From the NCBI RefSeq assembly GCF_013376095.1, contig NZ_JAAMFN010000001.1, positions 1 through 64,000 of the forward strand: DNA of 64,000 nucleotides, written 5' to 3'. Under the pieces are notes generated by a model. That model was given only the letters and a program-made list of their open reading frames with translations, searched no databases and was not told the origin of the DNA. Below are positions 10,681-57,812 of this stretch, piece after piece; within the stretch, counting starts at the first letter, position 1, and every line of letters starts with the position of its first letter. The position numbers and the translations under genes were made by a program. The stretch is from Arthrobacter sp. SDTb3-6. Its GTDB lineage: Bacteria > Actinomycetota > Actinomycetes > Actinomycetales > Micrococcaceae.

Positions 10681-10706
10681 GCGGGCCACCACCGTCCCCG
10701 GCCCGC

Positions 10707-10764
10707 CGACCCGTCGGCTGTGACGGTTTTCAGCCGCGATAACCGCCACAGCTGACGGGTCGGG
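10707..10764. repeat. 58-bp imperfect palindrome, locus A left copy
   Basis: Outer arms (10706-10728 and 10741-10763) match in 21 of 23 positions. The arms begin CCGACCCGTC and the loop is about 12 nt. It lies between the convergent 3' ends of fprA and the DUF559 gene, 3 nt from the latter's stop. Its partner at 11798-11855 aligns without gaps over 58 bp with about 42 identities. There is no T-tract, so it is not a classic intrinsic terminator. Confidence 0.8.
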
Positions 10765-10766
10765 CG

Positions 10767-11663
10767 TCAGGCGAAGTCCTTGCGCGTGCCCAGGCGGCCA
10801 AGCAGGGACCTCCCGGCGAGGTCCAATGGATCATCCCAGCCGCCAAGAACCAGCATCCGGGCGATTTTTGTGATGGCGGGCGTGCCGTCCCCGGCCATGT
10901 CGTGCTTGTTGATGATGGCCTGCTGCCAGCCCAGGGACCGCGTGACGAAGTTGCGGTCATGGTCCCGGCCCTGCTGTTCCGCCGTGAGGTGGTGGCCGCC
11001 GTCGTATTCCACGCAGGTGCGGAACTCCGGGCAGGCAAGGTCCGGGCCAAGCCTGCCCGTGCCGGCCCCGTCCCTGATCTCGTGGTTGCAGTGAAACTCC
11101 GGAAGGGGTGAGCGGCCCAGCAGCAGCCGAAGCCGGGTTTCAGGTGTTGAATCCGAACCCACCCGGACCAGGGCCACGGCCTGCTGCAGCTTGCGCATGC
11201 CGCGGGCGCCGGCGTGGCGGGCAAGGTAGCTGCGCAGGTGTCCGATCTCCACCAGGGGAAGGACCGTGCGCCCAAAGCTGTAGTTGTGGGCGCAGACTAT
11301 TTGATCGGCCAACGCCACCAGTTCATCGACGCCCAGGTCCGGTGCAATGTCCAGCAACGTGCGTTGCACGGAAGTGGCCGGAACACCGGCAACGTCAACC
11401 ACGTCTTCGGCGTCGAGCAGTAGCTCATGGCCAATGACATGGCGGCGCCGCGGCCGTTGCAGGCCAACGGGCCTGGACAGATGAAACGCCGGCAGCCTTT
11501 CGAAGCGCCGGGGAATGCGCAGGCCATGAAGCAGGGCCGCGGTGTGGTGGCTGACCACGGCCTGCGGCGTCACCAGCACCAGGACCCGGCAGCTTTCCAG
11601 CCACGAGACCTCCCCGGCCCACGCCCGCCTCGCGTGCCTGCCCAACGGTGAACGCCCGTGCAT
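10767..11663 (-). CDS. DUF559-like (Vsr/PD-(D/E)XK fold) protein, probably N-terminally damaged
   Basis: Orphan gene; 298 aa as drawn. The C-terminal half carries the DUF559/Vsr-like nuclease pattern: E175 (TPETRLR), PDL with D208, E219-Y-D221-G-G-HH, then R233-D and LGWQ at about 244-247. The N-terminal half resembles the AbiEi-like winged-helix region of these proteins (VVSHHTAALLHGLRIPRR). A plausible original N-terminus (MKNPQPLPDR..., family-like) lies in another frame from about 11706 to 11610. It joins this frame only by a +1 shift, and about 20 residues usually present between the parts are missing. The gene may therefore be decayed or start internally. No toxin partner is adjacent. 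It is bracketed by the palindromes at 10707 and 11798. Confidence 0.7.
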   Translation of the reverse strand: MHGRSPLGRHARRAWAGEVSWLESCRVLVLVTPQAVVSHHTAALLHGLRIPRRFERLPAFHLSRPVGLQRPRRRHVIGHELLLDAEDVVDVAGVPATSVQRTLLDIAPDLGVDELVALADQIVCAHNYSFGRTVLPLVEIGHLRSYLARHAGARGMRKLQQAVALVRVGSDSTPETRLRLLLGRSPLPEFHCNHEIRDGAGTGRLGPDLACPEFRTCVEYDGGHHLTAEQQGRDHDRNFVTRSLGWQQAIINKHDMAGDGTPAITKIARMLVLGGWDDPLDLAGRSLLGRLGTRKDFA

Positions 11664-11749: not shown

Positions 11750-11758
11750 TGTGGACAA
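11750..11758 (-). promoter_or_regulatory. DnaA-box-like 9-mer upstream of the locus A gene
   Basis: On the minus strand this reads TTGTCCACA, the preferred DnaA box form in high-G+C actinobacteria. It lies 39 nt inside the right palindrome and about 43 nt before the upstream start codon (11706) of the DUF559 gene. The second nuclease-like locus has TTATCCACA in the equivalent place (50601-50609). Binding by DnaA is inferred from sequence only. Confidence 0.5.
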
Positions 11759-11797
11759 CCCGCTGCCCGGCCGCCCCTGTGGTGGCGTTGTTGTGCC

Positions 11798-11855
11798 CGA
11801 CCCGTCAGTCGTGGCGGCTCTGGGCCGTCGGAACCGCCACAAGTGACGGGTGGGT
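11798..11855. repeat. 58-bp imperfect palindrome, locus A right copy
   Basis: Arms of about 20 bp (beginning CGACCCGTC and ending GACGGGT) pair with three mismatches. It aligns without gaps to the left copy at 10707-10764 (about 42 of 58 identical). It lies 26 nt beyond the pucR stop codon and upstream of the DUF559 gene, so it could also act as a pucR terminator hairpin. Confidence 0.78.
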
Positions 11856-28565: not shown

Positions 28566-28610
28566 CCGCCGGCCCGGTGCGCACCGTAATGGTGCCCACC
28601 GGGCCGGCGG
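28566..28610 (+). terminator. terminator hairpin after katA
   Basis: A 20-bp stem (28566-28585 with 28591-28610) with one mismatch and a 5-nt loop GTAAT, starting 6 nt after the katA stop and followed by TGTTT. Confidence 0.7.
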
Positions 28611-42581: not shown

Positions 42582-42640
42582 GTTGAGGTTGGGGACCGTG
42601 GCACCATTGGGTGTCGCCGTCCCCAACCTCAACAGTTTTT
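42582..42640 (+). terminator. terminator after the thioredoxin gene
   Basis: Perfect 15-bp stem: GTTGAGGTTGGGGAC (42582-42596) with its complement at 42619-42633, 22-nt loop, then AGTTTTT. It also faces the minus-strand monooxygenase gene and may work in both directions. Confidence 0.75.
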
Positions 42641-45878: not shown

Positions 45879-45895
45879 GCTAATTGAATATTAGC
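45879..45895. promoter_or_regulatory. LysR-type operator candidate in the lysR-putA gap
   Basis: GCTAATTGAATATTAGC has inverted arms CTAAT/ATTAG around 5 nt and fits the T-N11-A pattern of LysR-type boxes. It is the most AT-rich point of the 177-nt divergent region, 59 nt from the lysR start and 103 nt from the putA ATG. Confidence 0.55.
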
Positions 45896-45997
45896 CCCAT
45901 ACTGGAGCTAAAGGGAACCCCCGAGGCGCCGATCCAGCTGCCTGCGTTGGATCCCGGCCCAACCCGAGCGCCAACAGAAAAGAACGCACCAGCCATC

Positions 45998-48900
45998 ATG
46001 ACAACCACCATCGACACGGACCCCGCCGCCACCATTCCTGCCCCCGGCAACGACCTTGCGCAGGAAACCATCGCCCTCGTCCGGCACTGGCTGACCGAGG
46101 CCGCAAAGTTCCCCGCCGACATCTCCGCCCAGCGCCTGGCGGGCGTCCTGAAGGACCCCAACGGCCTGGACTTCACCGTCGGCTTCGTCGACGGCGTGAT
46201 CCGCCCCGAGGACCTGGCCGTTGCCGGCCGGAACCTGGCCGTGCTGGCGCCCAAGGTGCCCGCCTTCCTGCCGTGGTACATGCGCGGGGCCGTCCGCCTC
46301 GGCGGCGCCATGGCCCCCATCCTGCCGCAGCTCGTCATCCCCATTGCCCGCAGGGTCCTGCGCGAGATGGTGGGCCACCTGATCGTGGACGCCACCGACG
46401 CCAAGCTGGGCCCGGCCATCGCCAAGATCCGCCGGGGCGGCGTGGACCTGAACATCAACCTGCTGGGCGAGGCCGTGCTGGGCGAAAACGAGGCCGCCCG
46501 CCGCCTTGAGGGGACCATGCGCCTGCTGGCGCGTGACGACGTCGACTACGTCTCCATCAAGGAGTCCTCCACCGTCGCCCCGCACTCCGCCTGGGCCTTC
46601 GACGACGCCGTCAACCACGTCGTGCAGGAACTCACCCCGCTGTATGCGCTGGCCAACTCCTTCCCCAAGCCCAAGTTCATCAACCTGGACATGGAGGAGT
46701 ACAAGGACCTCACCATGACCATCGCGGTGTTCAAGCGCATCCTGGACAAGCCCGAGTTCAAGAACCTCGAGGCCGGCATTGTGCTCCAGGCCTACCTGCC
46801 GGACACCCTCGCGGCCATGATCGAGCTGCAGGAGTGGGCGGCTGCGCGCCGGGCCGCCGGCGGCGCCCCCGTCAAGGTGCGCATCGTCAAGGGCGCCAAC
46901 CTGCCCATGGAACAGGTCCAGGCCTCCGTCTACGGCTGGCCGCTGGCCACCTGGGGCACCAAGATGGACTCGGACACCAACTACAAGCGCATCGTGAACT
47001 ACGCACTGACGCCGGAGCACATCGAGAACGTGCACATCGGCGTCGCCGGCCACAACCTTTTTGACGTCGCCCACGCGTGGCTGCTCGCCAAGAGCCGCGG
47101 CATCGGCACCGCCACCGGCCAGCTGGAATTTGAGATGCTGCTGGGCATGGCCACCGGGCAGGCCGAGGCCGTGCGCCGCGACGTCGGCTCCCTGCTCCTC
47201 TACACGCCCGTGGTCCATCCCGGTGAGTTCGACGTTGCCATCGCCTACCTGATCCGCCGCCTGGAAGAAGGCGCCAGCCAGGAAAACTTCATGTCCGCCG
47301 TGTTTGAGCTCTACGACAACGAGGCCCTGTTCGAGCGCGAGCAGAACCGCTTCCTTGCCTCCCTGGCCGCGCTGGACACGGAGGTCCCCGCGTCCAACCG
47401 GACCCAGGACCGCTCGGTGCCGGCGGCCCCCGCCGCCACGGACACCTTTGCGAACACGCCGGACACGGACCCGGCCCTGCCGGCCAACCGTGCCTGGGGC
47501 AAGGAAATCCTGGCCCGGATCCCCGGCTCCAGGCTGGGCGACGACATCGTGGCAGCGAGCCGGGTGGCGGACCTGGCACAGCTGAACGGCATCGTGGACT
47601 CGGCGTTGGAGGCCGGAAAGGCCTGGGGCGCCATGACCGGCGCCGAACGCGCCGCCGTGCTGCACCGCGCCGGCGACGTCCTGGAATCCCGCCGCGCCGA
47701 ACTCATGGAGGTCATGGCTTCCGAGACCGGCAAGACCCTGGACCAGGGGGACCCCGAAGTCAGCGAAGCCATTGATTTCGCGCACTACTACGCCGAGCGC
47801 GCCAAGGACCTGGACGCGGTCGACGGCGCCACGTTTGTCCCGGCGAAACTCACCGTTGTGACCCCGCCGTGGAACTTCCCCGTGGCCATCCCGGCCGGAT
47901 CCACCCTGTCCGCACTGGCCGCAGGCTCCGCCGTCGTCATCAAGCCGGCCACCCAGGCGCGGCGCTGCGGCTCCGTCATGGTGCAGGCGCTGTGGGACGC
48001 CGGCGTTCCCCGCGAGGTGCTGGCGCTGGTGCAGCTGGAAGAGCACGCGCTCGGCCAGGCACTGGTCTCCCACCCCGCAGTGGACCGGGTGATCCTCACC
48101 GGCGGCTACGAAACGGCCGAACTGTTCCGCAGCTTCCGCACCGACCTGCCGCTGCTGGCCGAAACCTCCGGCAAGAACGCCATCATCGTCACCCCCAGCG
48201 CCGACCTGGACCTGGCCGCCAAGGACGTGGTGCAGTCCGCGTTCGGGCACGCCGGGCAGAAGTGCTCCGCCGCCTCCCTGGTCATCATGGTCGGGTCGGT
48301 GGCGAAGTCCGCACGCTTCCACAACCAGCTCCTTGACGCGGCCCGCAGCATGGTCGTCGGCTACCCGGAAACCGCCACGAGCCAGATGGGGCCGATCATC
48401 GAACCGGCCGCCGGCAAGCTCCGCAAGGCCCTGACCACCCTGGACGCCGGGGAATCCTGGGCCATTGAGCCCCGCCAGCTCGACGACTCGGGCCGGCTCT
48501 GGTCCCCGGGCGTGCGCACCGGCGTTGCCGAAGGTTCGGAATTCCACCTGACCGAGTACTTTGGTCCCGTCCTGGGTGTCATGGCGGCCGAGACGCTGGA
48601 GGACGCCATCGCCATGGTCAACCGGATCGACTACGGGCTGACCAGCGGCCTGCACTCGCTGGACCCGGCCGAGATCGGGCTGTGGCTGGACACCGTCCAG
48701 GCAGGCAACCTGTACGTGAACCGCGGCATCACCGGCGCCATTGTCCAGCGGCAGCCGTTCGGGGGCTGGAAGAAGTCGGCAGTGGGTGCCGGCACCAAGG
48801 CAGGCGGGCCCAACTACCTGGTGGGTCTGGGCAACTGGCTGCCCGCAGCGTCGACGGCCACTGCGCCGCTGGGCGATGCCGCGCGCAAGATGCTCAACGC

Positions 48901-49450
48901 CGCCTCCTCCCTCGACGCCGAGGGGCAGGCCTTCCTGTCCCGGTCGCTGCACAGCGACGCCGCCGCCTGGGCCGCCGAATTCGGCATCGCCAAGGACGTC
49001 TCCGGGCTGTCGGCCGAGCGCAATGTGTTCCGCTACCTGCCGCTGAACCCCCTGGTCCGCCTGGCCGAAGGCGAACCCGTGGCCAAGCTGCTGCGCGTGC
49101 TCTCGGCAGGAATCACGGCCGGGGCCGTTCCGGAAGTCTCCTCCGGCGTCGAACTTCCCAACGCCGTCAAGGCCCTGCTGGTGAGCCTGCGCATACGCGT
49201 CACGGTGGAGAACGACGCCGACTGGCTCGCCACCGCGCGCCGCTTCGGTGCCGGGCGCATCCGGCTCATTGGCGGGGATGCCTCCGCCGTGTACGGCGCC
49301 ACGGGCGGCCGCCCCGACCTGGCGATCTACCACAACGAGGTCACCGAGGCCGGGCGCATTGAGATGCTGCCGTTCCTGCACGAGCAGGCCGTCAGCATCA
49401 CGGCGCACCGCTTCGGCACGCCGAACCACCTCTCGGACGGCCTGATCTAG
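45998..49450 (+). CDS. putA: bifunctional proline dehydrogenase / L-glutamate gamma-semialdehyde dehydrogenase
   Basis: An 1150-aa two-step proline oxidation enzyme. The FAD-dependent proline dehydrogenase barrel occupies about residues 40-480 (KIRRGGVDLNINLLGEAVLG, VKVRIVKGANLPMEQVQASV, GVAGHNLFDVAHAW). The aldehyde dehydrogenase lies at about 500-990 (TPPWNFPVAIPAGST, LLAETSGKNAIIV with the general base, HAGQKCSAASLV with the nucleophile). About 160 C-terminal residues form an extra domain. There is no N-terminal DNA-binding domain, so regulation must come from the divergent LysR. It converts proline to glutamate, linking with the GABA genes upstream as nitrogen and carbon catabolism. ATG 45998 lacks a strong ribosome-binding site. 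Confidence 0.93.
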   Translation: MTTTIDTDPAATIPAPGNDLAQETIALVRHWLTEAAKFPADISAQRLAGVLKDPNGLDFTVGFVDGVIRPEDLAVAGRNLAVLAPKVPAFLPWYMRGAVRLGGAMAPILPQLVIPIARRVLREMVGHLIVDATDAKLGPAIAKIRRGGVDLNINLLGEAVLGENEAARRLEGTMRLLARDDVDYVSIKESSTVAPHSAWAFDDAVNHVVQELTPLYALANSFPKPKFINLDMEEYKDLTMTIAVFKRILDKPEFKNLEAGIVLQAYLPDTLAAMIELQEWAAARRAAGGAPVKVRIVKGANLPMEQVQASVYGWPLATWGTKMDSDTNYKRIVNYALTPEHIENVHIGVAGHNLFDVAHAWLLAKSRGIGTATGQLEFEMLLGMATGQAEAVRRDVGSLLLYTPVVHPGEFDVAIAYLIRRLEEGASQENFMSAVFELYDNEALFEREQNRFLASLAALDTEVPASNRTQDRSVPAAPAATDTFANTPDTDPALPANRAWGKEILARIPGSRLGDDIVAASRVADLAQLNGIVDSALEAGKAWGAMTGAERAAVLHRAGDVLESRRAELMEVMASETGKTLDQGDPEVSEAIDFAHYYAERAKDLDAVDGATFVPAKLTVVTPPWNFPVAIPAGSTLSALAAGSAVVIKPATQARRCGSVMVQALWDAGVPREVLALVQLEEHALGQALVSHPAVDRVILTGGYETAELFRSFRTDLPLLAETSGKNAIIVTPSADLDLAAKDVVQSAFGHAGQKCSAASLVIMVGSVAKSARFHNQLLDAARSMVVGYPETATSQMGPIIEPAAGKLRKALTTLDAGESWAIEPRQLDDSGRLWSPGVRTGVAEGSEFHLTEYFGPVLGVMAAETLEDAIAMVNRIDYGLTSGLHSLDPAEIGLWLDTVQAGNLYVNRGITGAIVQRQPFGGWKKSAVGAGTKAGGPNYLVGLGNWLPAASTATAPLGDAARKMLNAASSLDAEGQAFLSRSLHSDAAAWAAEFGIAKDVSGLSAERNVFRYLPLNPLVRLAEGEPVAKLLRVLSAGITAGAVPEVSSGVELPNAVKALLVSLRIRVTVENDADWLATARRFGAGRIRLIGGDASAVYGATGGRPDLAIYHNEVTEAGRIEMLPFLHEQAVSITAHRFGTPNHLSDGLI

Positions 49451-49468
49451 CCGGTTCCGGGCACGCCC

Positions 49469-49526
49469 GCGCCCGTCCCCCATAAATGCGCCCCTTCCAC
49501 GGGGCGCATTTATGGGGGACGGGCGC
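49469..49526. repeat. 58-bp perfect palindrome, locus B left copy
   Basis: 26-bp arms (49469-49494 and 49501-49526; the arm starts GCGCCCGTCCCCC and contains ATAAATGCGCC) pair without mismatch around a 6-nt loop TTCCAC. A run of T (ATTTTTT) follows on the plus strand, so it can also terminate putA. Its partner at 50660-50717 matches 54 of 62 bases including flank. It lies 17 nt from the stop of the minus-strand gene. Confidence 0.88.
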
Positions 49527-49542
49527 ATTTTTTAGCAGGGCA

Positions 49543-50547
49543 CTACCCTTGCGGGATCCCGGCCTGGCGCAACAGCCGTTCAAAGCCGCGAAGATCCATC
49601 ATTTCCTGCCATGTCCACCGAAAGACGCCCACATCCTGGGCGCGGATCTGGTCCTCACGGTTCTTTTCCGCCATGATCCGGTCCTGAATGGACGTGCCGC
49701 CCGCCCAATCCCGGCGCAGGTACTTGCTGCGGCCATCGAACTCGCCGGCCTGGCGCTGCTGCTCGAACCAAAAGTCCACAAATGCGTTGCTGCCATCGCG
49801 GAGGGTGAAGCGGTGCTGGAGTTCCGGGGCGGCAAAACCCAACTGCCCCATGCGGACCCTGCTGAGGGATTCGCCGGCGGAACCGGACAGCCCGGACGCG
49901 AACCCAATGACGGCCACGGCCCTGTTCCGGGCCGACCTTGACGGCAGCGACTCGGCCGCCTGCAGCAGCTCCGGCTTGGACAGTGGAGCGCCCTGCGGTT
50001 CATCGACACGCCACACGGGTTCATGGCCGGACGCGGGGAAGCCCACGGGGGTGAACACGTTGACGGGTCTGGGACGCCTGGCCGCGTGCAGGCTGGAATC
50101 ACACACGGCCACGGCCCGTTCGAAGCTCAGCCGGGTGATCAACTCCATGGTGGTGGTGAGCTTGTCCGTCAGGACCAGTGGGCCGCAACGCACCACCCCG
50201 TCGTCGGTCTGCCCAAAATGACGGGCGATGTCGCCACGGCTGCGGCCGCCGCCCCGCTCCTGCGTCAGGGCGTGCAGCTTTTGCGGGGTGCCGATGGTCC
50301 ACAGGCCCCACAGCAGCGCGGCGGTTTGCCGGCAGAACACCGGCTGGTGCTTGGTGGCCAGCTGAAACGCGATGGCACGAAGCCCGTACCGCGACGGCCC
50401 ATCGAGGGGCTGCCACTCGGAAGCCTCCGCATAAACGCCGCGGCGGACGCGCACGTACCGCCCGCTGTTGCACAGCCTGGCGAGGAGTCGTGAGTCCTGG
50501 CCGGCAAGCTCAACATCGGAGGGGAGAATCAACCGTGGCGCGCCCAT
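49543..50547 (-). CDS. AbiEi-like / DUF559-like (PD-(D/E)XK fold) orphan protein
   Basis: A 334-aa protein. The N-terminal part (about 10-45, LLARLCNSGRYVRVRRGVYA) is an AbiEi-type winged helix, followed by a helical AbiEi-like middle (HQPVFCRQTAALLWGLW). The C-terminal about 110 residues show a nuclease-like core: E226 (AGESLSR), D258 (AFVDFW), E269-F-D271-G and K295 in EKNREDQIR, with W311. It combines a DNA-binding head and a Vsr/DUF559-like domain. No AbiEii toxin partner is present; neighbours are putA and a VOC gene. It is bracketed by 58-bp palindromes and preceded by TTATCCACA. A paralogue in architecture lies at 10767-11663. Confidence 0.75.
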   Translation of the reverse strand: MGAPRLILPSDVELAGQDSRLLARLCNSGRYVRVRRGVYAEASEWQPLDGPSRYGLRAIAFQLATKHQPVFCRQTAALLWGLWTIGTPQKLHALTQERGGGRSRGDIARHFGQTDDGVVRCGPLVLTDKLTTTMELITRLSFERAVAVCDSSLHAARRPRPVNVFTPVGFPASGHEPVWRVDEPQGAPLSKPELLQAAESLPSRSARNRAVAVIGFASGLSGSAGESLSRVRMGQLGFAAPELQHRFTLRDGSNAFVDFWFEQQRQAGEFDGRSKYLRRDWAGGTSIQDRIMAEKNREDQIRAQDVGVFRWTWQEMMDLRGFERLLRQAGIPQG

Positions 50548-50600
50548 GCATCCCAGCGTTCCAGAGCCTGGCGGTCCTTGTCAGCGGGGTCCAGCCGGAC

Positions 50601-50609
50601 TGTGGATAA
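50601..50609 (-). promoter_or_regulatory. DnaA-box-like 9-mer upstream of the locus B gene
   Basis: Minus strand TTATCCACA, identical to the consensus high-affinity DnaA box, 53 nt before the ATG and 50 nt inside the right palindrome. The first nuclease-like locus has TTGTCCACA at the matching place. Confidence 0.55.
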
Positions 50610-50659
50610 CTCCCTCCCAGGGGCAACGCCGGGTCATCTTCGCACTGCTGGCAGTTTCC

Positions 50660-50717
50660 GCGCCCGCTCCCCACCTATGCGCCCCTTCCACCGGGCGCAT
50701 TTATGGGGAGCGGGCGC
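50660..50717. repeat. 58-bp imperfect palindrome, locus B right copy
   Basis: Arms beginning GCGCCCGCTCCCC pair with three central mismatches (22 of 25). The loop TTCCAC and the following GCATTT are identical to the left copy at 49469-49526; 54 of 62 positions match, without gaps. It lies 14 nt beyond the stop of the VOC gene and upstream of the AbiEi-like gene. Confidence 0.85.
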
Positions 50718-50731
50718 ATTTCCTGCGAAGG

Positions 50732-51133
50732 TCAGGCCTGCGAAATCCGGACCATGTTGCCCGAGGGGTCGCGGAAGGCGCAGTCGCGCGGCCCCCACGG
50801 CTGCTGGATCGGTTCCTGCAACACCTCGGCGCCGAATGCGCGGGCCTGCTCGAAGGTGCTGTCGAGGTCGTCGGTCTGGAACACGAGCATGGGCAGCACG
50901 CCCTTCGTGAGCAGTTCCTGGAGGGCGTCCCCGTCGGCCTGCGAACGGCCGGCGTGCGGTTCGGAGACCACGATGCCCAGGCCGGGCTGGGCGTCGCTGC
51001 CGAGCGTGACCCAGCGGAAGCCGCCGGAGGCCACATCGTTCAGGACGGAAAGGCCCAGCCCGTCGCGATAGAAGGCCACCGCCTCATCGGTGTTGCTGAC
51101 AGTGACATTGGTGTATTGCAGTGAAATCGTCAT
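50732..51133 (-). CDS. VOC family protein
   Basis: A 133-aa single vicinal-oxygen-chelate domain: LQYTNVTVSNTDEAVAFYRD at the start, FRWVTLGSDAQPGLGIVVSE, and the second module MLVFQTDDLDSTFEQARAFG ending FRDPSGNMVRIS. Typical of glyoxalase/bleomycin-resistance-like proteins of unknown substrate. TAGCGT lies 7 nt before the ATG. It follows the AraC-type gene by 10 nt on the same strand, a frequent AraC-glyoxalase pairing. Confidence 0.88.
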   Translation of the reverse strand: MTISLQYTNVTVSNTDEAVAFYRDGLGLSVLNDVASGGFRWVTLGSDAQPGLGIVVSEPHAGRSQADGDALQELLTKGVLPMLVFQTDDLDSTFEQARAFGAEVLQEPIQQPWGPRDCAFRDPSGNMVRISQA

Positions 51134-51143
51134 GGCAGTTACG

Positions 51144-51617
51144 CTATCCGGCCCGGCGCGGCACCGCTTCTTCGATCCTGCTTTCCTGGGCGGGCGTCGG
51201 GACGTGCGGGGCCTGGGCCGGGCTGCGCAGGGGGCGGGTGGCGAATCGGGCAAAGCAGGCGGGCATGGCCTCGACGGCGCTGTGTTCCCGGGCACGGTAC
51301 GCGCTGGGGGTCTCGCCCATGATCTCGGTGAAGCGGGAGCTGAACGAGCCCAGGGATGTGGCGCCCACGGCCATGCAGGCGTCGGTCACGGACGTGCCGG
51401 ACCGCAGCAGCGCGGCCGCCCGCTCAATGCGTCGCGTCATGAGGTAGTTGTAGGGCGTCTCCCCATAGGCGGCGCGGAACTTGCGGGAAAAGTGCGCAGG
51501 GGACATGAACGCCTTCGCTGCGATGGTGGGCACGTCAAGGGGCAGCGCGTAGTCCCGGTCAACCATGTCCCGCGCCTGGCGCAGCAGCGCGAGCGTGGCA
51601 AGTTCCTCCGGCGTCAT
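51144..51617 (-). CDS. AraC family transcriptional regulator
   Basis: A 157-aa regulator consisting almost only of the AraC double helix-turn-helix: LDVPTIAAKAFMSPAHFSRK (about 27-46), FRAAYGETPYNYLMTRRIER (about 47-66) and SLGSFSSRFTEIMGETPSAY (about 88-107), plus a disordered C-terminal tail. There is no separate ligand domain, so it may sense through the partner VOC protein or act constitutively. TAGCTT lies 6 nt before the ATG, giving a leaderless transcript. Cotranscribed with the VOC gene. Confidence 0.88.
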   Translation of the reverse strand: MTPEELATLALLRQARDMVDRDYALPLDVPTIAAKAFMSPAHFSRKFRAAYGETPYNYLMTRRIERAAALLRSGTSVTDACMAVGATSLGSFSSRFTEIMGETPSAYRAREHSAVEAMPACFARFATRPLRSPAQAPHVPTPAQESRIEEAVPRRAG

Positions 51618-57733: not shown

Positions 57734-57770
57734 GCAGTTCCCCGCGCAGGCACCTCCGCATGATACTGAA

Positions 57771-57812
57771 ATGGACCGTGGAGGCTGATCATTCAGCCTC
57801 CACGGTCCATTG
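57771..57812. terminator. bidirectional terminator between rpf and the amidohydrolase gene
   Basis: Perfect 19-bp stem (57771-57789 with 57794-57812, starting AATGGACCGTGG) with a 4-nt loop TCAT in a convergent gap. The A/T ends of the arms give short T runs on both strands. Confidence 0.7.

Follow-up and report, generated by a model that had tools for sequence, protein, structure and literature searches.

Why is a chromosomal gene of Arthrobacter sp. SDTb3-6 enclosed by two copies of one long palindrome, with a DnaA-box sequence ahead of its start codon, and is this arrangement peculiar to one place? The locus (locus B) lies in the window, i.e. the whole stretch of 64,000 nucleotides that was analysed. 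As the original prediction had claimed, a minus-strand gene is flanked there by a pair of 58-nt palindromes. The open reading frame (49543-50547) encodes 334 aa. The left repeat, downstream of the gene (49469-49526), had been called a perfect palindrome and is indeed a perfect inverted repeat, with 26-nt arms that are 100% complementary around a 6-nt loop, TTCCAC; the right repeat, upstream of the gene (50660-50717), has 25-nt arms that are 88% complementary. Aligned as a 64-nt direct pair (49467-49530 and 50658-50721) the two are 88% identical, which fits the 54/62 identity first noted. The topology of the neighbours was also correctly described: a plus-strand gene (45884-49450), which we take to be of putA type from reading its sequence without a family search, has its stop codon 18 nt ahead of the left repeat, and a minus-strand open reading frame of the glyoxalase family (50732-51295, start codon uncertain), convergent on the slot, ends 14 nt beyond the right repeat. 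Directly after the left repeat the plus strand reads ATTTTTT, and this repeat may also serve to terminate putA.

Hairpins of the size found at locus B exceed chance. The two repeats score 26 and 16; in 464 kb of the genome 36 hairpins score at least 15, ordinary terminators among them, and an order-2 Markov copy of the 464 kb contains none scoring 13 or more. Their DNA-fold z values are -11.7 and -9.1, with no shuffle equal to either. A generic sigma-70 promoter and terminator scan returned nothing at locus B, to which the stem-length limits of the scan may contribute. With Rfam the hairpins gave microRNA-model matches only, all under their cut-offs, and across the window one tRNA was found at curated cut-offs. 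Further strong hairpins, without a linked family gene, are present in the window at 28566-28610, 42582-42633 and 57770-57811.

The protein had been labelled AbiEi-like and DUF559-like. The first part of this label is borne out by the N-terminus, which matches Pfam AbiEi_4 (E 4.3e-6). In Pfam and NCBIfam profile searches the B protein has no DUF559 or Vsr match. DUF559 passes the Pfam cut-off in three (L036, L032 and L033) of the six own-genome paralogs scanned (locus A, L035, L036, L032, L033 and L031). An AlphaFold2 model of B, built from an alignment of 29 sequences, has a mean pLDDT of 90.1, and a Foldseek search of the PDB with this model returned the AbiEi antitoxin (6y8q, E 8e-6) and Rv2827c (1zel, E 1.7e-3), together with weak matches to Vsr (E 0.32-0.78) and the homing endonuclease I-Bth0305I (3r3p, TM 0.68 by target length, E 0.48); as the table is without aligned ranges, these matches were assigned to the two halves by domain order. 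By Pfam and by predicted fold the N-terminal half is AbiEi-like, and the C-terminal half is weakly predicted to be like a Vsr/EDxHD-type homing nuclease. Across the 29 aligned family sequences E226, D271, K275 and E294 are invariant, D258 and E269 almost so. Searches with Pfam, NCBIfam and PDB folds found no HUH transposase, giving AbiEi and Vsr-like matches instead, and the phage and plasmid collections held no match to the B protein. A sequence profile search of the PDB with B gave a single match (E 0.24), which we judged to be due to chance.

A second locus with the plan of B had been proposed in the window, and locus A is real. Its gene (10767-11663, minus strand, 298 aa), a relative of B from a second branch of the family, lies between a left (10706-10763) and a right (11797-11854) inverted repeat, which are 74% identical to each other and unrelated to those of B. 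The fold of the right one exceeds chance by a small margin (z -2.9), 2 of 200 shuffles being equal to it. Two details of the comparison needed correction. The box of A is TTGTCCACA (11750-11758, minus strand) and not TTATCCACA, which B carries (50601-50609, minus strand), placed as predicted between the right palindrome and the gene. The distances, said to agree within 10-11 bp, match more poorly: box to start is 95 nt at A (annotated start) against 62 nt at B, and box to repeat 38 against 50, the start codons of A-type genes being uncertain and their box distances possibly off by several codons.

Searching the own genome with the B and A proteins yielded ten loci. We define a flank pair as two flanks of one gene that match each other; since a score of 20 is lax, being attained by 13 of 193 non-family control genes, we use a score of at least 30 for headline counts. 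At this cut-off 8 of the 10 own-genome loci have matched flanks, and the pair of L030 is 79 nt long and 97% identical. L029 (G000:C24:51264-52260), a B-like gene that a stop or frameshift has disrupted, has no matched pair at score 20 and has kept its TTATCCACA box; L034 (G000:C67:45097-45936), an A-like gene within an 815-aa open frame, has one strong palindrome near it and neither a matched pair nor a box. All 23 congeneric genomes contain both B-like and A-like matches at E <= 1e-10. Among 127 gene loci read from these genomes, a subset of the loci found, 92 have a flank pair scoring at least 30 and 106 one scoring at least 20, leaving 35 below 30; without L029, L030, L332, L372 and L381, whose gene ends were corrected, the pair (at least 30) is present at 89 of 122. 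A box (TTNTCCACA, either strand) lies upstream at 103 of the 127. In a wider set, the best 80 of 562 loci from Micrococcaceae, Microbacteriaceae and Cellulomonas records with some congeners, pairs reach 20 at 60 of 80 loci (cross-locus control, 5.9%) and 30 at 32 of 80. The proposal of a system with locus-specific repeats, which had been made to depend on further paired examples in related genomes, is supported by these counts, and the family is apparently large and undescribed.

As a control, genes of 200-450 aa were called in 464 kb of the own genome from their codon composition, and the 198 obtained were surveyed. Flank pairs scoring at least 30 occurred in five, all at family loci, one being an open reading frame antisense to the C57 family gene, and TTNTCCACA within -450 to +20 in four, again all at family loci. 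The 193 non-family genes of these 464 kb gave no pair at 30 and no TTNTCCACA box.

The own genome contains 31 copies of TTATCCACA and none of the reversed pattern. Eight of the 31 precede family genes, and two adjoin genes (C56) that we read, without a family search, as dnaA and dnaN. Although A and B agree less well in box spacing than had been predicted, the spacing is fixed near 60-62 among B-type genes of the wider family: the distance from box to start is 58-62 in 22 of 24 boxed B-type loci (among 32 loci), and of the 52 boxed loci in the wide set (best 80 of 562) 43 have it at 59-62. Sixty non-redundant upstream regions, chosen for a box at 58-62, conserve further positions, among them a T near -35 and two letters, A and T, within a -10-like hexamer; its position directly 5' of the ATG suggests that the transcripts may be leaderless. 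At locus B, where the box is 62 nt upstream of the start codon, the hexamer AACGCT (50555-50560, minus strand) matches the family pattern nAnnnT and ends so near the ATG (7 nt ahead) that this promoter, predicted from the family pattern, also suggests a leaderless transcript. In the second branch the box is reversed (cTGTGGATAACtt); of 56 regions, 36 have it at -45 to -48, and most of the others, in which the start codon is doubtful, near -30, and a -10-like element follows it as well. Binding of DnaA to these boxes is putative, and the preference of E. coli DnaA for paired boxes, reported in the available part of PMC11317965, calls for caution over single ones. Sequences like TGTGGATAAC are also found near unrelated genes (L055-L058, L060-L062 and L065), so the set of DnaA boxes is likely to be wider.

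The original prediction had called for a genome-wide search for dispersed solo copies, and these exist: B-type palindromes are present in 10 of the 23 genomes, and in 9 of the 23 there are copies away from a B gene. Genomes with a close B gene have 5 (G000), 8 (G001), 8 (G008), 4 (G022) and 4 (G006) B-type places, all four palindromes of G006 flanking the gene; those without a close (at least 74%) B gene have 5 (G011), 4 (G021), 3 (G014), 2 (G016) and 1 (G002). We inspected 22 copies of the B family and of family 2, one of which lacks the central hairpin, and a gene 3' end adjoins 20 of the remaining 21; among those 20, L148 stands beside an A-type gene and three also lie under a called open reading frame. 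The gene loci themselves sit between convergent genes in 71 of the 128 cases with both neighbours called (146 loci). Of 50 B-type palindromes, 22 have a central GTNNAC and 28 lack it (among the 37 non-redundant ones, 17 have it), against a background of 48 in 2672 off-centre windows. Family 2 was defined at the putA slot of G017; its copies adjoin A-type genes in G007, G015 and G017, and these genes were found independently, by protein search. Our blind prediction that two family-2 copies of G007, 1.1 kb apart, enclose a nuclease gene was wrong: the gene between them is presumably a hut gene, and the family-2 gene sits elsewhere (L198, L375). At L316 (G001:C1:2000400-2000900) two different long palindromes stand in tandem behind one gene, the first being of the family that flanks L093 in the same genome.

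We also asked how far such copies follow the gene-linked palindromes of their own genome, scoring 39 position-defined intergenic regions against the palindromes that flank family genes in the own and in other genomes. An own-genome match of at least 20 was obtained in 19 of the 39 (putA, 9 of 17; S38, 8 of 13; S37, 2 of 9), or in 17 of 37 without two G000 rows that had been chosen by similarity; 102 of 858 other-genome cells reach the same cut-off. Over 5000 permutations of the genome labels the count averaged 5.2 and peaked at 13, compared with the 19 observed. In 14 of the 39 regions the best match came from the own genome. Among the genomes with own matches are G010 (at two slots, with two different genes), G012, G014, G016, G003, G017, G007 and G001; at S37, apart from G000, 1 of 8 regions has an own-genome match, which hardly backs the same-genome link. 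Because the sampling of gene loci was uneven, with between 1 and 9 per genome, the own-genome count tends to be too low.

The two repeat copies of a locus evolve jointly at the metG-side site, so named from the neighbour that we read as metG: in 57 of 66 genome pairs the copies within a locus are more alike than the orthologous ones, counted on 12 paired loci of which two are from near-identical genomes. The metG-side genes do not form one branch, so that replacement of whole units may contribute. At the putA slot the same relation holds weakly, in 4 of 10 genome pairs. L080 and L085, which have no matched pair, are omitted from this comparison. Between paralogs at different sites, palindrome similarity correlates weakly with protein similarity, with rho 0.22 for B (8 of 1000 permutations) and, in the same Mantel test, rho 0.12 for A-type loci, a value reached in 106 of 1000 permutations.

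The 3' end of putA was compared in 23 genomes. Six of them have a B-type gene there, five with a matched pair; in G005 the gene is present and no matched pair was found. Among the 17 genomes without the B gene at this site, 14 have at least one hairpin scoring 12 or more within the scanned stretch: G021 and G011 carry the B type, eleven genomes carry other families, and G004 has repeats of another sort. By eye, weaker palindromes are visible in G014 and G012, while G002 has no hairpin at score 12 or more. At the fpr-pucR site, that of locus A, the comparison covers 21 of the 23 genomes, G004 and G009 being outside it. Gene and pair are present in G000, G011 and G013, and G002 and G008 have a single palindrome, by eye like those of G011 and G013, the gap being occupied by other DNA. 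Five genomes (G022, G006, G018, G019 and G007) have 23-51 bp with neither gene nor hairpin, G020 and G015 have a short hairpin with a T-rich tail, and the remaining nine (L298 and L300-L307) have 2-8 kb of other DNA; the junction is possibly an insertion hot spot. Of the 12 genomes besides G000 with slot S38, nine have a hairpin scoring at least 12 there, the families differing. No clean insertion boundary or target-site duplication is readable at putA, fpr-pucR or S38.

These sites bear on the view that takes the palindromes for common bidirectional terminators or structures of gene ends, between which orphan AbiEi-like regulators lie by chance. Copies do stand directly behind stop codons, T runs follow some of them, as at the left copy of B, and REPs are placed likewise at gene ends in REP-rich genomes (available part of PMC3733652). 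However, terminators have no need to match across a gene, and yet the flanks of family genes match whereas, at score 30, none of the 193 other genes has matching flanks. The palindrome family at the putA end varies between species, and the fpr-pucR junction is free of both gene and palindrome in 5 of 21 genomes, so that we do not observe the terminator conserved regardless of the nuclease gene against which the original prediction had been set; in addition, dispersed copies track the gene-linked families of their own genome beyond label shuffles. We regard this explanation as unlikely, and the placement at gene ends would nonetheless allow the palindromes a role in termination.

The six putA-site genes form one branch (support 92/95; 93% of bootstrap trees), and the family gene appears to be mostly inherited in place. 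L074 (G002:C1:3199861-3200859) belongs to this branch and yet lies far from putA, flanked by a different palindrome family, possibly through a move of the whole unit. In G006 the putA-B unit is seen near both contig ends (C1:15211-16209 and C1:4355953-4356948; L099 and L101), the second copy carrying stops, which is possibly a redundant overlap of a circular assembly. A homing endonuclease, whose gene spreads by cutting palindrome-only alleles and is then copied in, would agree with the C-terminal fold, like that of Vsr and I-Bth0305I at weak E-values, with slots that have either gene and pair or a single similar palindrome (G021 and G011 at putA, G002 and G008 at fpr-pucR), and with L074, which places at least one putA-branch gene at another site. 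On the other side, a single branch holds the putA-site genes, and among the A and B loci sampled the protein score ratio of different-site pairs never exceeds 0.8, so that gene movement appears to be rare; neither flanking palindrome is interrupted, although homing genes as a rule split their target; and single copies may be leftovers of deletion between repeats. This makes homing improbable, and we place it behind the terminator view.

The explanation that we consider probable is a resident nuclease with cognate, dispersing palindromes, which resembles REP/RAYT systems in its logic and is built from an unrelated enzyme and an unrelated repeat; locus B is then, in our judgement, likely to be one of ten paralogous loci of the "nuclease plus cognate palindrome" kind in its own genome. 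By analogy with AbiEi, the N-terminal half would bind both arms of its own palindrome and the Vsr/homing-type half would cut the centre, where B-type arms that are otherwise unrelated often share GTNNAC. Repair from another copy, or the reverse reaction, could then spread the palindrome to new gene ends, and recopying would keep the copies alike. The DnaA box by the apparently leaderless promoter might couple expression to replication, when extra templates exist. The palindromes would thus be the mobile population, the gene itself rarely moving. More tentatively, we propose a replication-timed, palindrome-guided family of non-HUH nucleases in Micrococcales, with several distinct units per genome that each cut their own palindrome centrally, copying and homogenising it at host gene ends, so that gene 3' ends would be continually rewritten throughout the genus by competing families.

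Least likely of the explanations weighed is that the upstream palindrome is the autoregulatory operator of an orphan repressor like a type IV antitoxin, the downstream and solo copies being operators of its regulon: AbiEi and Rv2827c do repress their own operons by binding paired inverted repeats of 23 bp that are separated by 3 and 13 bp (available part of PMC7319586), to which the arms and spacing at B (26 nt and 6 nt) are similar, but the palindrome lies upstream of the box, beyond the apparent promoter, the dispersed copies inspected are mostly behind genes, and the C-terminal half has a conserved nuclease-like cluster.

If the reading as a resident nuclease with cognate palindromes is true, a second and unrelated enzyme class follows the same logic, and the combination of a nuclease with cognate palindromes arose more than once. 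The family would also supply naturally distinct protein-palindrome pairs, with which the question of what keeps such repeats in genomes becomes directly testable, and the fixed DnaA-box sequence offers a handle on replication coupling. Our literature search of full texts, which left most subscription journals and bioRxiv outside, returned no AbiEi/DUF559 genes with palindrome pairs. To our knowledge, HUH RAYTs are the only dedicated enzymes known for REP-like palindromes. The available parts of PMC3733652 and PMC12306157 make no mention of DUF559.

Among known systems, the Vsr/EDxHD homing endonucleases (I-Bth0305I) resemble the C-terminal half weakly in fold, and DUF559 proteins resemble the family through the three own-genome paralogs that pass the DUF559 cut-off; both differ in that the association with a palindrome pair is found here, and B has neither a DUF559 nor a Vsr match. 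With the AbiE type IV toxin-antitoxin systems the N-terminal half shares the fold (6y8q, 1zel) and Pfam AbiEi_4, and AbiEi-type antitoxins bind inverted repeats (PMC7319586, in its available part). Unlike them, the protein has an extra nuclease-like half, palindromes lie on both sides and are also dispersed, and no AbiEii (DUF1814) toxin was found by Pfam in the locus B neighbours scanned (glyoxalase, AraC). The CGTC-tagged REPs, a super-family reported without a dedicated enzyme, are likewise dispersed palindromes without a HUH partner (PMC3733652, same part), but they are short, carry the CGTC tag and are reported mainly from alphaproteobacteria. The closest analogue is the REPtron (RAYT/REP), as described in that part of PMC3733652: a chromosomal enzyme gene is flanked by its own palindromes, the units are repeat-specific where a species has several families, and the dispersed palindromes lie mainly behind genes. 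It differs from the present loci in its enzyme, since RAYT is a HUH tyrosine transposase of IS200/IS605 type whereas the enzyme here is AbiEi/Vsr-like, and in its repeats, REPs being 20-40 nt long with a GTAG or CGTC tag whereas those here are about 58-75 nt with locus-specific arms. No constant end was seen in the latter, and the motif shared by B-type repeats is the central GTNNAC. Moreover, copies are few here (no genome has more than 8 B-type places at the cut-off used), and a DnaA-box sequence lies upstream of the gene. As both the HUH enzyme and the short tagged REP are missing, we do not file these loci as REPtrons; neither enzyme nor repeat was found to be related to those of this closest analogue, and the overall logic is REP-like.
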